Virus record (IMG/VR): IMGVR_UViG_3300004770_000043
Location: 1 to 39,748 of that record
DNA length: 39,748 bases
Source of the DNA: a virus
Reading direction: 5' to 3' (one strand)
How positions within the stretch are numbered: position 1 is the first letter of the stretch; each line of letters starts with the position of its first letter. Under the pieces are notes generated by a model. It searched no databases. It saw nothing but the letters and a program-made list of their open reading frames with translations, and was not told where the DNA came from. The position numbers were made by a program, and so were the translations under genes. Shown in pieces: positions 4,399 to 11,343 of this stretch.

Positions 4399-4579
4399 CC
4401 TTTTCTCCAATCAACCTTTACCAGAACCTAAGCTCGGTGTTTCCAACGGCAAAGCATTAGGCTACATTGCCAACGGTGAATCTAGGGATAAACTGCGGGA
4501 AAGGTTTAGACGCGGCGAATTGATCGGCGTAAATCCCGCGATTATCAATGATGAGTATGACTTTAAGGGCGTAAAATGA
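4391..4579 (+). CDS. Small hypothetical protein
   Basis: The 62-residue product overlaps the previous gene by 8 bases and the next by 4 (ATGA). The sequence has DKLRERFRRGELIGVNPAIINDEYDF, a charged helix followed by a turn; nothing matches a family I know. Its support is the overlap pattern at both ends and codon use like the flanking phage genes. Confidence 0.55.
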   Translation: MDDLFSNQPLPEPKLGVSNGKALGYIANGESRDKLRERFRRGELIGVNPAIINDEYDFKGVK

Positions 4580-4809
4580 CGCAATCCAAAAAACATTCCG
4601 CACTTGAGGCCATCGCAAACACCGCTATCGGATACGGCATTGCCGTGGCCACCCAGATGATTGTGTTTCCCATCTTTGGAATACACGCAACCCCTAGCAC
4701 TAACTTTGCTATCGGCGGCGTGTTCACGGTGGTATCATTGGTTCGATCTTATGTTTTGCGACGAGCGTTCAACGCGTGGCACATTCACATGGGAAGCAAG
4801 TGCGGATAA
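4576..4809 (+). CDS. Small two-helix membrane protein (DUF7220-like)
   Basis: The 77-residue protein has a short polar start (MTQSKKHSALEAIANT), a first hydrophobic helix (AIGYGIAVATQMIVFPIFGI), a short loop (HATPSTNF) and a second (AIGGVFTVVSLVRSYVLRRAF). The layout and the IGYG/VFP/FTVVSLVRSYVLRR signatures match a small membrane family common in phage early and replication regions, which I recall as DUF7220. Function is unknown. It does not sit near the lysis genes, so a holin role is unlikely. The start overlaps the preceding stop. Confidence 0.7.
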   Translation: MTQSKKHSALEAIANTAIGYGIAVATQMIVFPIFGIHATPSTNFAIGGVFTVVSLVRSYVLRRAFNAWHIHMGSKCG

Positions 4810-4833: not shown

Positions 4834-5382
4834 ATGGCAAAGGCGCGCAAGGTCAAAAAGGCAAAGCCCGTTGAAGATCGGGTGGATATTGTTGCCCCCA
4901 CAGACGAGCAAATGGCCCAAGGGATATTTGTCCGCGCCAAGCTGGCATACCGCCGACTACCTGTGATTGATGTCATGGTGGCGGCGGGTCACATAACAGA
5001 CCGTCAATACGCGGCCCTTACCCATTACCGCAACATGGCTATAGCCCAAGACTTCTCACCAGCCCGATGCACTCTGGACAGGACACCAAGGGGAGGTGGA
5101 GACGGTGGATTACCCCCATACACGCTAAGGGCAATCCTAGAGATGGGCAGGATGGATAAAGAACTACGCCAGCTATGCGATATTGTCCGGGCCGTCACCA
5201 TCCAAGAGCAAACCGTCAGCCAATGGGCTATGTCTAAATATGGATCGGTAATGCGCCAGCGCATCGGGAAAGACGGCAGGACAATAACATGGTTTGAGCC
5301 TAAAAGTTCCGTTCACAAAGCGGCGATGCAAGAATTACGGGATGCCGGTGACATAATAGCCAATGCGCTTGGTGGTTTTTAA
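4834..5382 (+). CDS. Basic protein, possible late-gene regulator
   Basis: The 182-residue product has a lysine-rich start (MAKARKVKKAKPVEDR), then helices: QGIFVRAKLAYRRLPVIDVMVAAGHITDRQYAALTHYRNMAIA, a Gly/Pro linker TPRGGGDGGLPPY, and MGRMDKELRQLCDIVRAVTIQEQTVSQWAMSKYG, which can be a helix-turn-helix region. GAGGGG precedes the ATG by 6 bases. I do not recognise the family. It is the last gene before a 523-base structured non-coding stretch containing a strong terminator and the start of the late genes, the position of Q-type antiterminators or late activators. That role is inference from place and basic charge, not from homology. Confidence 0.6.
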   Translation: MAKARKVKKAKPVEDRVDIVAPTDEQMAQGIFVRAKLAYRRLPVIDVMVAAGHITDRQYAALTHYRNMAIAQDFSPARCTLDRTPRGGGDGGLPPYTLRAILEMGRMDKELRQLCDIVRAVTIQEQTVSQWAMSKYGSVMRQRIGKDGRTITWFEPKSSVHKAAMQELRDAGDIIANALGGF

Positions 5383-5392
5383 TTAAGGGCGA

Positions 5393-5417
5393 TTGACAAT
5401 TTGCACGGGACTATGAT
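5393..5417 (+). promoter_or_regulatory. Promoter-like element
   Basis: TTGACA at 5393-5398 and TATGAT at 5412-5417 are separated by 13 bases. That is short for E. coli sigma-70, but falls in the shorter spacing range I recall for Caulobacter housekeeping promoters. Transcription would start near 5424 and run into the palindrome and the structured leader. Confidence 0.4.
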
Positions 5418-5431
5418 AGGAAATACCCAGA

Positions 5432-5448
5432 ATGACGAATTGCGTCAT
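5432..5448. promoter_or_regulatory. Palindrome ATGACG-N5-CGTCAT, operator-like
   Basis: Perfect 6-base arms flank AATTG. It lies just downstream of the promoter-like element at 5393-5417, where a bound dimer would block transcription. CCC at 5426-5428 and GGG at 5450-5452 could extend it as an RNA hairpin with an internal loop. Confidence 0.45.
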
Positions 5449-5558
5449 CGGGATGGTTCAAAAATTCAAATAGCGCGGGTAGGGGTTGGGCCTTATCCGC
5501 GTTTCGATAAGCCGGAAATCCGATGAATAGTGCCTTGGTGCCTCATCCCCCACCATGC

Positions 5559-5630
5559 GCGCCGGTAGTTTCCGTGCTCTCGCCCCTTGCAAGGGCAGAC
5601 AGTAATCTCGCAGCCGAGGCAATCCGGTGC
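5559..5630 (+). ncRNA. tRNA-sized three-way junction, possible structured RNA
   Basis: GCGCCGG at 5559-5565 pairs with CCGGTGC at 5624-5630 (six Watson-Crick pairs and one G-U). Inside are GCCC-CTTGCAA-GGGC (5582-5596), whose 7-base loop looks like an Ala (TGC) anticodon loop, and CTCG-CAGC-CGAG (5607-5618). The outer span is 72 bases, as in tRNA. There is no GTTCRANYC T-arm and no proper D-arm, so it is not a normal tRNA. It may be a leader RNA fold, a tRNA relic or tRNA mimic. Confidence 0.35.
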
Positions 5631-5731
5631 TGATTTACTGGCAGCGAGGTGGAAGCCCCCGCATAGTTTCAACGCTCACTTTCTGGATGGGTAAATTACA
5701 CAGCCCCTAAACAGGCTAGACACATTTTAAT

Positions 5732-5756
5732 TTGACAGTTGGCAAAAAGCTCTTAC
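5732..5756 (+). promoter_or_regulatory. Second promoter-like element before the late genes
   Basis: TTGACA at 5732-5737 is followed after 11 bases by GCTCTTAC (5749-5756), which partly matches the GCTANAWC -10 element I recall for Caulobacter housekeeping promoters. An E. coli-type -10 (TACTAC, 16-base spacing) is poor. A transcript from here would meet the terminator at 5797 after a few tens of bases. Confidence 0.3.
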
Positions 5757-5796
5757 TACGTTTCATGCGACACGCCTCCACAGCTTTCGCACGACG

Positions 5797-5828
5797 CCCC
5801 GCCCTCAACCGGCGGGGTTTCGTTTTAT
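5797..5828 (+). terminator. Rho-independent terminator
   Basis: CCCCGCC (5797-5803), loop CTCAACC, GGCGGGG (5811-5817) form a perfect 7-pair GC stem directly followed by TTTCGTTTTATT. It would end plus-strand transcripts from the early region or from a leader promoter about 80 bases before the terS start, so late expression needs readthrough or a promoter downstream of it. Confidence 0.85.
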
Positions 5829-5905
5829 TAGGGCAATCCCTACATGGGAGAAGACACCAACTAACCCGGCAAAAGGAGACCATCGCCGGATAAGGAGTTA
5901 CCGGC

Positions 5906-6310
5906 GTGGCAGTCCTGCAAAACATACGGCATGAAAGGTTCGCGCAAGCCATTGCCCAAGGCAAAAGCCAAGCCGATGCTTATGTGGAAGCGGGTTACAA
6001 AGCCATCCCTGTTACTGCAAAAGTAAATGGATGCAAATTACTAACCAACGCTAACATAAAGGCCCGCGTTAAAGAGATACAAGAGCGCGCAGCCGAGAGA
6101 ACGGAAATCACCATATCAAGCCTTAGCCAAGAGCTATTGAAGGTTGCCAAAAAGGCAGAGCGTATAGATGAACCTTCCGGCCTTTCCGTATGGAGGCTAA
6201 CCATCATGGACTTGGCAAAACTAAATGGCCTTATCACCGATGGCAAAAAGCCAAGTGATGAAGATAAAACCACTAACATCATTACTCATGGCGGACTGCC
6301 GAGTAGTTAA
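5906..6310 (+). CDS. terS: Terminase small subunit
   Basis: The 134-residue product starts at GTG 5906 with AAGGAG about 8 bases upstream. Residues 5-60 carry the Terminase_2-type DNA-binding pattern: RHERFAQAIAQGKSQADAYVEAGY, a helix-turn-helix, then KVNGCKLLTNANIKARVKEIQER. The central part (LSQELLKVAKKAERIDE) is helical, suited to ring formation. TerS recognises the packaging site and hands DNA to the large subunit, whose gene starts 2 bases after its stop. It opens the late block after the terminator. Length is in the normal range for the family. Confidence 0.9.
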   Translation: MAVLQNIRHERFAQAIAQGKSQADAYVEAGYKAIPVTAKVNGCKLLTNANIKARVKEIQERAAERTEITISSLSQELLKVAKKAERIDEPSGLSVWRLTIMDLAKLNGLITDGKKPSDEDKTTNIITHGGLPSS

Positions 6311-6312
6311 CG

Positions 6313-7602
6313 GTGGCCACATATGAAATCACAATCCCCACATTCCACGAAGGACAGGTATCTGTTTGGAATAATCGGGGCAGGCGTAATGCGGTGCGGT
6401 GTGGGCGTCGTTGGGGTAAGACCAAGGGCATCATTACACTAGCAAGTGATGCAATCATCAAGGGCCAAAAGGTCGGCCTTTTCGCGCCGACGTATAAGCA
6501 ATTATCAGAACCCTATGATGAGATAGTGACATCTCTTGACCGTATTCTAACCGGATCAAATCGCAGCGAGGGCACGATTAAATCCCTCACAGGCGGCAAG
6601 GCGGACTTTTGGCAAACCACCGATAACCCTCTGGCTGGCCGTGGCCGTGAATATGACCTGATCCTGATAGACGAAGCGGCATATACTAAAAACTCACAAA
6701 TGCTGGATATTTGGCACAAGTCTCTCGTCCCCACGATGGCGACCAAGCCCAATGCTACAGTGTGGGCGTTTTCTACCCCCAACGGGATTGATCCAGAAAA
6801 CTTCTTCTGGCGGCTCTGCAATGATCCAGAGATGGGCTTTGTGGAGCATCATGCGCCAAGCTGGGAGAATCCGCTCGTTAATCGGGAATGGGTAGAGACG
6901 GAAAGGGCGCGGCTTCATCCTGACGTATTCCGGCAGGAGATTGAGTGCCAGTTTGTTGACTGGTCAGGCGTTGCATTCTTCGGGATGGATAAATGGTTGG
7001 TGGATGGCCAGCCGGTGCCATATCCGACTAATTGCGACCGCGTGTTTGCGGTGGTAGACAGTGCGGTCAAAACTGGCAGCGCCAATGACGGCACGGCAAT
7101 CATTTACCTTGCGCGCAATCAGTATGCGGGGACGCCGCTGGTCATCCTTGATTACGATATAATCCAGATCGAGGCTGATCTTTTAACTGACTGGCTTCCC
7201 GGCGTGGTTCTCCCTCGTTTGGATGAACTAAGCAGGCAAGTGGGAGCGCGTGAAGGCGTCCGTGGCGTATGGATTGAGGATAAGGCCAGCGGCACGGTGA
7301 TGTTGCAGCATGGCAAGCGCCGAGGCTGGCCGGTGGTGGCTTTGGATTCTACCTTTACCAGCATAGGTAAGGACGAGCGCGCCATTGCGGTATCATCGCA
7401 CCATCATCAGGGATTGTGCAAGATTAGCGACTTCGCATTTAACAAGACCGTCAATTACAAGGGCATCGAGCGCAATCACCTAGTCTCGCAGGTGACAAGT
7501 TACCGCATCGGTGATAAAGACGCTGCAAGGCGCGCAGATGACCTTGCCGATTGCTATACTTATTCGCTTGGGGTTGCCCTTGGCTCCGCACATGGTATTT
7601 AA
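6313..7602 (+). CDS. terL: Terminase large subunit
   Basis: The 429-residue product has the ATPase in the first half: Walker A-like RCGRRWGKT (residues 29-37), Walker B LILIDEAAY (D120, E121) and the coupling motif VWAFSTPNG. The nuclease half shows VFAVVDSAVKTGSANDG (first Asp), GVWIEDKASG (second acidic site) and RRADDLADCYTYSL (last Asp pair), an RNase H-type fold. It translocates DNA into the prohead and cuts it. GTG 6313 is chosen because it is the only start close to the terS stop; the nearby ATG is out of frame. Length is normal for a single-chain TerL. Confidence 0.95.
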   Translation: MATYEITIPTFHEGQVSVWNNRGRRNAVRCGRRWGKTKGIITLASDAIIKGQKVGLFAPTYKQLSEPYDEIVTSLDRILTGSNRSEGTIKSLTGGKADFWQTTDNPLAGRGREYDLILIDEAAYTKNSQMLDIWHKSLVPTMATKPNATVWAFSTPNGIDPENFFWRLCNDPEMGFVEHHAPSWENPLVNREWVETERARLHPDVFRQEIECQFVDWSGVAFFGMDKWLVDGQPVPYPTNCDRVFAVVDSAVKTGSANDGTAIIYLARNQYAGTPLVILDYDIIQIEADLLTDWLPGVVLPRLDELSRQVGAREGVRGVWIEDKASGTVMLQHGKRRGWPVVALDSTFTSIGKDERAIAVSSHHHQGLCKISDFAFNKTVNYKGIERNHLVSQVTSYRIGDKDAARRADDLADCYTYSLGVALGSAHGI

Positions 7603-7629
7603 CTACAATTCGGAATGGATTTAACTCCC

Positions 7630-9516
7630 ATGTCAACACCTAACAATCCCGGCTGGACAACGGGCTATGTGCCTACCGCTGCGGAGTGGGACAGCACATG
7701 GTCAAGCAAGGTTGATTACCCTGCACCTCCGGGCCAAGGCGGCACGGGCGTAGTCGCACAGCCGTCCAATGGGCAACTGCTGATCGGCAATGGCACAAAC
7801 TACAGCCTGAGTAACATCACCGCAGGCGCGGGTATTAGCGTTACCAACGGCGCTGGTAGCATTACCATTAGTTCGCCCAATACGTTTGCATGGCCTGCTG
7901 GCGGGGTGCCCTACTCCACTGGATCGGCATGGAGCGGCAGTCTGTCGCTTAGTGGCTCCGGTTCTGTATTGGCATTGACCAATGGCCCAGTGTTCACTGC
8001 TCCGGTTCTGGGTGCGGCTCAGGCGTCATCTGTTGCTTTTAACGTAAGCGGCGGATCGTCGGTTATTCAGGGCAACGCTGGCACGGTTGGCGTTGTCACA
8101 TATACGCTTCCGTCATCCACCCCGACGACAAGCGGCTATGTCCTAGCATCGGACACCAGCGGCAACATGTCGTGGGCACCTGCTGGCTTGACAGGCCCTA
8201 CAGGCCCAACAGGCCCATCCGGCACTTATTATGCATCCACCAGCACCACATCGCTGACGCTTGCCACCGGCGCACAATCTCTGACGATTGGCACTGGGCT
8301 TGCCTATACCGCCGCCCAGCCTGTGATCGTGGCCAATGACGCCAGCCACTACATGACGGGGTTGGTTACAAGCTACAACACGGCCACTGGCGCGTTGGTG
8401 GTTAACGTCACGGCCATTACCGGCACAGGCACGTTTACAAGCTGGACTGTCAATCTCAACGGCGCATCTGGCCCACAGGGCGCTACTGGCCCCACAGGCC
8501 CAACGGGTGCGACAGGAGCGGCATCTAGCGTTGCTGGCCCTACAGGCCCGACAGGGCCGACTGGCCCACAAGGCGCGGGTGGTACGGCTGGCACAGCAGG
8601 CGCACAAGGCCCCACAGGCCCTACAGGCCCCACGGGTTCCACAGGATCGACAGGCACTGCTGGTGCTAATGGCCCCACCGGCCCGACTGGCCCTACTGGC
8701 CCTACGGGTGCGGCGGGTAGCACTGGCCCAACGGGCAGCGCGGGATCGTTCGGCCCAACCGGCCCCACTGGCCCCACAGGTGCAATGATTTATCCCGCCT
8801 CGGGTATTCCATTGTCCACTGGTTCGGCTTGGGGGACAAGTTACAATACCACTGGTTCGGGATCGGTGGTGCTAAACGCATCCGCCACGATGAACGCGCT
8901 TACTCTTGCTGCGGGCACCACGACTAACGCCCCGCTTAAACTGACAACCGGCACCAATTTGACCACGCCTGTTGCCGGTGCACATGAGTATGATGGCATT
9001 GCATTTTATACGTCCGTTGCAAACTCGGCTAGAGGCTTTCAGCCATCGTTTCAGTTTTGCCGCTTGGGCACCAGTTACACGCTGTCTAATACCACAAGCT
9101 ATCAAAAGCTATTTAACACCACTACAAATGGGGCGATCAATCTCCCCGTGGGGCTTTATTATTTTGAGTGTATGTTTAATATCAGCGGCATGAGCGGCTC
9201 TGATATTGGCTTTGGATTTATAACTGCTGCAAGTTTAACATTGGCTTGGCGCGCATCGGCGGGCAATGCGGCTACTAATTATAGCACATTTAGTCAAAAC
9301 TATGCTGCAACAAATATCACTGCATCCAGCAGCACTTTGACGGCAGCTACAGCTATGATGCAGGGCACGATTAACGTGACTACGGCGGGTAACTTTGCGC
9401 CTAGCATTGCAGTGGTTTCTGGTGCAAATAGTTCTATGGTAGTGGCGCAGGGTAGTTACTTCATGGTCACTCCGATCAGCCCAAGCACCACCACATATTC
9501 TGGCAACTGGAGTTAA
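7630..9516 (+). CDS. Collagen-like virion fibre protein
   Basis: The 628-residue protein begins [22 protein letters not shown], an opening common in phage fibre proteins (ATG 7615, five codons earlier, is also possible; neither has a strong ribosome site). Order of parts: beta-rich N-terminus with a [11 protein letters not shown] module; a short GPTGPTGP tract near residue 188; a globular segment of about 80 residues ([19 protein letters not shown] to [11 protein letters not shown]); a long Gly-x-y collagen tract (about residues 281-384); a second [17 protein letters not shown] module; and a C-terminal beta domain that may trimerise. Gly-Pro-Thr repeats form triple helices in phage fibres. 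Its place between terL and portal is unusual and favours a head fibre. Confidence 0.8.
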
Positions 9517-11038: not shown

Positions 11039-11277
11039 TGCCTAGCGTTGCCCAGTGCATTGGACAAGAGATCCACAATTTCAATGTTGCGGCTTTGAAC
11101 CATACGCAGGCGTATCATAGCTTTATTACGCTGGCACAGTTGGGCGATTGGGAATCCGCCTCGCGTAGTCAGATGCAGTCAGTTGCCATGCTAGATGCGG
11201 CGATGGACGCATATATGCGGGCCTGCCGGATTAAGTCTATGGCTGAGGGGCAAGAAGATGAATATCTGCCGGATTAG
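11038..11277 (+). CDS. Small helical protein, unknown
   Basis: The 79-residue product starts at an ATG overlapping the portal stop by one base. It is helical with histidines and methionines: GQEIHNFNVAALNHTQAYHSFITLAQLGDWESASRSQMQSVAMLDAAMDAYMRACRIKSM. Helical hairpins of this kind may bind a larger head protein, but I recognise no family. Its last codons and TAG stop are also the first ten bases of the tRNA-Thr gene, so tRNA processing would cut the mRNA at the end of this gene. Confidence 0.65.
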   Translation: MPSVAQCIGQEIHNFNVAALNHTQAYHSFITLAQLGDWESASRSQMQSVAMLDAAMDAYMRACRIKSMAEGQEDEYLPD

Positions 11278-11343
11278 CACAGTGGCAGTGCATCCCCCTT
11301 GTAAGGGGAAGGTCGCGGGTTCAATTCCACGCATCCGGCTCCA
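11268..11343 (+). tRNA. tRNA-Thr (anticodon TGT)
   Basis: The acceptor stem GCCGGAT/ATCCGGC pairs 7 of 7 and the 3' CCA is encoded (11341-11343). D-arm: GCAC-AGTGGCA-GTGC with the GG pair. Anticodon arm: TCCCC-CTTGTAA-GGGGA, anticodon TGT at 11300-11302, reading ACA. T-arm: GCGGG, loop TTCAATT, then CCACGC, so the stem needs one bulged A (11329 region) to pair, which is abnormal. The 5' ten bases overlap the end of the preceding CDS. Presence of an intact anticodon arm and CCA suggests function; the T-stem defect leaves some doubt. Confidence 0.85.

Follow-up and report, generated by a model that had tools for sequence, protein, structure and literature searches.

Late activators of the RinA, ArpU and LtrA types are encoded by genes located just before terS. 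Q and AlpA load at an element between the -35 and -10 hexamers during an early pause of RNA polymerase, which is then resistant to terminators (PMC6606751, PMC9371919). AlpA from Pseudomonas aeruginosa binds GGGACG, an element located between the -35 and -10 hexamers and upstream of an intrinsic terminator (PMC9371919). GafZ of Caulobacter, a reported anti-terminator for the gene transfer agent, also has its element between -35 and -10 (PMC11150451). Q-type proteins are too diverged to be found by sequence, which is partly why the switching-on of late genes is obscure in many non-enterobacterial phages.

We analyzed a viral DNA stretch of 39,748 nucleotides (IMG/VR record IMGVR_UViG_3300004770_000043, positions 1 to 39,748; hereafter the window), in which an earlier note had described a Q-like arrangement ahead of the late genes. 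Its components were all confirmed in the sequence: a gene for a basic 182-residue protein (the 4834 gene), a TTGACA, an intrinsic terminator and terS (Table 1). We estimate a probability of roughly 0.6 that this gene encodes a late regulator working like Q of lambda and phage 21 or like Pseudomonas AlpA, by antitermination between a promoter directly behind the gene (P1) and the terminator. The terS and terL genes are on the same strand as the 4834 gene, downstream of the leader (∼500 bases after the TTGACA at 5393), and a DUF7220 gene (4576-4809; E 6.5e-33) is directly upstream of it. In the late block, a collagen-like tail-fibre-type gene occupies an unusual place between terL and the portal gene (7615-9516), and a tRNA-Thr (TGT) gene is found at 11268-11343, soon after the portal gene. 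A further long collagen-like stretch occupies about 37.0-39.7 kb, at the right end.

Table 1. Positions of the late-control features in the window, and of the RNA element in other phages.
Feature	Position	Strand	Basis and remarks
Putative regulator gene	4834..5382	+	ORF list; 182 aa, pI 9.8; founding member of an unnamed family in this analysis; predicted Q-like late antiterminator
P1 as a whole, -35-like site through box	5393-5446	+	Conservation in relatives
-35-like TTGACA of P1	5393..5398	+	10 bases past the stop codon; position shared by L004, L005, L055, L065, L093 and Pam1
Candidate extended -10 of P1	5412..5421	+	TATG then ATAGGA, 17-base spacer; predicted, weak consensus match
Hairpin over box	5432..5448	+	ATGACG-AATTG-CGTCAT; two pairs changed on both sides
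TTGCGTC box	5440..5446	+	Family consensus TTGCGYC; 47 bases from the -35 start; comparison and held-out cases
Conserved RNA element	5582..5658	+	Hairpin 5582-5596; helix 5600-5639; conserved GGTGGAAGCCC 5648-5658; found in three phage lineages
RNA element copy, L008	5001-5080		
RNA element copy, L010	10693-10773	-	
RNA element copy, L011			
Second TTGACA site (P2)	5732..5759	+	Kept in L004; decayed and shortened in L005; misfits module consensus
Intrinsic terminator before terS	5797..5828	+	CCCCGCC-CTCAACC-GGCGGGG at 5797-5817, T-rich tail to 5828; strongest of 4
terS, first late-block gene	5906..6310	+	Terminase_2, E 1.6e-10; phrog_51, E 4.3e-18
terL	6313..7602	+	phrog_2, E 2.9e-35

The 4834 open reading frame is real, and its product has a computed net charge of +8.8. 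The protein gave no match in Pfam, PHROG or NCBIfam, and its family profile matched no PDB sequence; no similarity to a known Q family was found in these searches. AlphaFold models built from 4 and 5 sequences had a mean pLDDT of 43-46 and were unusable, and a fold search with the regulator model was ruled out by this poor prediction.

Consensus counting in the window gave three promoter-like sites against 4.7 expected and four terminator-like sites against 4.5 expected, neither above chance. The TTGACA at 5393 was not listed at all because its -10 is poor, as are the -10 hexamers in the module loci generally. A structured leader with several hairpins had also been described; the leader as a whole folded no better than shuffled sequence (z -0.79), but it contains the small conserved RNA element. 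With counts and leader folding no better than chance, the case rests on comparison, and the features of the window that rise above chance do so because they are conserved: P1 with its box, the hairpin over the box, the terminator and the RNA element.

Sequence comparison places the 4834 gene in a diverse, unnamed protein family. Most members come from sphingomonad prophages, and others from the cyanophage Pam1 and human-gut phages; tblastn with the 4834 protein returned Pam1 gp59 (36%) and the human-gut phage MT839944 (27%). The close IMG/VR relatives are L005, whose protein is 97% identical, and three near-identical contigs at 89% (L002-L004). Profile searches detected members in 5/401 genomes of an order-wide sphingomonad draw, in 12/401 of a family-wide draw (not every one of them new) and in just 1/385 across the class. 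Fourteen members could be aligned over the core, and no relatives were found on plasmids. In phage surroundings that look intact, the comparison establishes a constant place for the family gene, immediately ahead of terS-terL, often with an HNH gene intervening (the window, Pam1, L055, L065, L066, L087, L089, L090, L091, L130 and L138). In Pam1 a GIY-YIG gene is inserted between the family gene and terS.

TTGACA occurs twice in the window leader, at 5393 and at 5732, and alignment of the L004 and L005 leaders showed that the first one, adjoining the gene, is conserved, with TTGCGYC 47 bases on. The TATG of the candidate -10 was found at the same place in L065, L066 and L088 and nearby in Pam1. 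With a transcription start from P1, the box would lie at about +10. In L004 the hairpin over the box reads GTGGCG-AATTG-CGCCAC and is followed by the terminator-like GGCATTTTT; the changes are compensatory. We also observed a GGGGGCAC-like G-rich run right after the -35 in L089, L090, L091, L130 and L138. Its location between the two hexamers is similar to that of the AlpA and GafZ elements, and it is a candidate binding element for the regulator.

The earlier note had suggested searching for the gene and leader pair in other phages. The gene with the P1/box module recurs before terS: the motif TTG[AC][ACG]-N36..42-TTGCG[CT]C, sought around the stop codon, was present in 8/16 regulator lineages vs. 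0/225 control gene ends, the latter being mechanical ORFs of at least 120 aa from the same loci, some surely spurious (Fisher p 5e-11, which is optimistic because the motif was spotted by eye in the same loci and then counted; the Pam1 entry uses the stop codon of its inserted GIY-YIG gene, chosen after inspection of the sequence). The motif occurred just 11 times in 489 kb, both strands included, and in the lineages bearing it the spacing is nearly constant, with the box 42-47 nt after the -35-like TTG[AC][ACG]. The strict motif was missing in the other 8/16 loci. L066, L088 and L091 have TTG-type sites and hairpins but no box in the right position; no clear promoter or terminator was seen in L067, L068, L069, L086 and L094, several of which have no neighbouring terS.

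Two held-out cases were available, one of them (L130) obtained with a search pattern modelled on members already known. In MT835519 (L138), with the motif fixed beforehand, a single occurrence was found in 7.6 kb; it lies behind the regulator gene, 73 bases after the stop codon, and a hairpin with a T-rich tail directly follows the box. Conversely, scanning IMG/VR with a DNA pattern of box plus terminator tail yielded five contigs, two of which carry a family member directly upstream. One is the new lineage L130 (family member at E 1.4e-59), in the order regulator, motif, terminator, HNH, terS, terL and portal; the other, L132, has the same promoter-terminator sequence as L089. No family member was found in the remaining three matches (L129, L131 and L133). 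A TTGCGCGGGGGCAC...TTGCGC pattern also matched five IMG/VR contigs, with a family member only in L132, already found, and none in L134-L137. The expectation thus held in the held-out tests both ways, from family to motif and from motif to family. By sequence comparison, then, the Q-like layout is a real module that recurs across diverged phages, and because of this recurrence the product of the 4834 gene very probably regulates the late genes, acting at the promoter region behind its own gene.

An intrinsic terminator shortly behind a promoter-like site, as in the Q layout, was observed in several lineages. Using a fixed rule (a hairpin with a folding energy of -12 kcal/mol or lower, no more than 200 nt from the gene end), terminators were detected in 6/16 lineages plus L090, L007 and L004 (the loci being L065, L066, L087, L089/L090, L091, Pam1, L007 and L004), vs. 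2.7% of 150 sampled control ends, and are thus enriched after the box. The rule misses L055, L092 and the window itself, where the terminator is farther than 200 nt from the gene end. The window terminator, which folds at about -21 kcal/mol, lies ∼370 nt from the presumed P1 start, behind a leader that exceeds those of its relatives in length. It is common for a terminator to follow the last early gene, and such a terminator could simply end the early transcript, with the late promoter elsewhere and the 4834 gene unrelated to transcription; several homologues without an adjoining terS are in keeping with such an account. We regard it as quite improbable, since a -35-like site and a box with fixed spacing recur between the gene and the terminator in diverged phages, the Pam1 site is behind the inserted gene and still directly ahead of the terminator, and the held-out L130 and L138 agree with the module.

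The claim that all late genes depend on passing the terminator at 5797-5828 was weakened by the close relatives. The terminator is kept in L004 with one G-C to G-U change; L005 lacks ∼79 bases relative to the window, which take in the last part of the second TTGACA site and all of the terminator. The terminator is therefore not indispensable, L005 being 97% identical. At about 3450-3495 of L005, the second TTGACA has become a perfect inverted repeat, TTGCTA-GT-TAGCAA, which may be natural or an assembly fault. The retention in L005 of P1 and box and not of the strong terminator would suit a late transcription activator, RinA/ArpU/LtrA- or Ogr-like in position, that binds TTG...TTGCGYC and recruits polymerase, the terminator being leaky or belonging to the early transcript. 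Poor -10 hexamers are what a promoter in need of an activator might show, and known activators occupy the same place before terS. We consider this activator rather unlikely: the hairpin terminators that recur right behind the box are difficult to account for if they separate an activated promoter from its genes, and the family matches no described activator family.

Of the two roles that had been put forward for the 4834 gene, antiterminator or late activator, antitermination is the likeliest and most economical mechanism on the comparative evidence, and the unnamed family probably represents anti-terminators of a new kind. Q and AlpA work through just such an arrangement, in which a promoter-like site lies between a dedicated regulator gene and the late block and has a terminator some tens of bases on. 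RNA polymerase would start at P1, with its -35 directly behind the gene, and pause early, probably near the TTGCGYC box; without the regulator it would stop at the downstream terminator. The regulator would bind the promoter DNA and load onto the paused polymerase, which could then transcribe past the terminator, into terS and the rest of the late block.

The leader RNA had been proposed as the target of the regulator, and here the comparison spoke against the earlier note. The conserved element matches Sphingopyxis phage VSN-002 at 75% over 83 bases, and L010/L011 also match. RNAalifold on four sequences from three lineages gave 20 pairs, four of them changed on both sides, and a pseudoknot proposed by eye (CUYGC/GCRAG, 5607-5611 with 5644-5648) varies consistently with a single exception, an A-C mismatch in L004. 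No Rfam match was obtained for the leader, VSN-002 or L010 at either gathering or permissive thresholds. The element pattern gave 25 chance-like matches in bacterial genome contigs, none with the flanking conserved parts, and a covariance model found the element in 0/301 sphingomonad genomes, a weak result since the search had no positive control. A 36-aa ORF at 5523-5633, VSN-002-like in translation, was rejected as non-coding: the alignment with L004 (an 86% relative) contains frame-breaking single-base indels, and on this ground the leader is not coding.

Lying between P1 and the terminator in the window phage and its relatives, and conserved as described, the element might act in cis to modify polymerase, as HK022 put does, or serve as the regulator's RNA target. 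Its other settings make either role highly improbable. In VSN-002 it is found where the late block ends, after the lysis region; in L010/L011 it stands ahead of an ORF of 61 residues and is convergent with the tail genes, and the L010 copy follows another gene and comes with a TTGACA-TATAAA of its own. The L010 contig yielded no relative of the regulator gene, none was noticed in VSN-002, and the more distant family members have no such element behind the gene. Because it also occurs in phages where no regulator gene was seen, the element in the late leader is probably a small RNA in its own right and not the regulator's target. VSN-002 is annotated with a telomere resolvase (L051 14717-15835) and may be an N15-like linear plasmid prophage.

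Since the protein family and a short cis signature together define the proposed switch, it becomes recognisable in unannotated phages, and it is open to study in a cultured phage (Pam1) or in inducible sphingomonad prophages.

Among the known systems, GafZ is alphaproteobacterial and phage-derived, and the family gave a collinear but weak profile match to the C-terminal part of GafZ/GafA (DUF6456, PF20057), with HHalign scores of 17-21, P 5e-4 to 2e-3 and a probability of 9-25% (3.8% with the server alignment). Column permutations mostly scored far lower, with 1/200 aberrant at 128 and unexplained; single DUF6456 sequences scored like random ORFs, the Pfam scans gave no PF20057 match, and the palindromic ZBE was not seen. 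On a bolder reading of low probability, the family would be an antiterminator family of alphaproteobacterial and cyanobacterial phages, without sequence kinship to Q, AlpA or N, and a distant phage relative of GafZ, with anti-termination in the gene transfer agent descended from a phage late switch of this type; if true, this link would tie phage late control to gene transfer agent control. With RinA, ArpU and LtrA the 4834 gene shares its position just before terS; unlike in those systems, several lineages here have a terminator behind the site, and no match to their Pfam/PHROG families was found in the 4834 family. The module resembles AlpA in the G-rich spacer of several family loci and in the downstream terminator, without a sequence match between the proteins. 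Unlike Q, the family has no match to Q sequences (Pfam, PDB sequences), its box is TTGCGYC with no clear -10-like pause sequence, and the module would target the packaging genes first, not the lysis genes. What it shares with lambda Q and 21Q at pR'-tR' is the layout: a gene between the replication and late genes, a promoter-like site directly behind it, a conserved box that would be transcribed early, a promoter-proximal terminator, and the late genes beyond.
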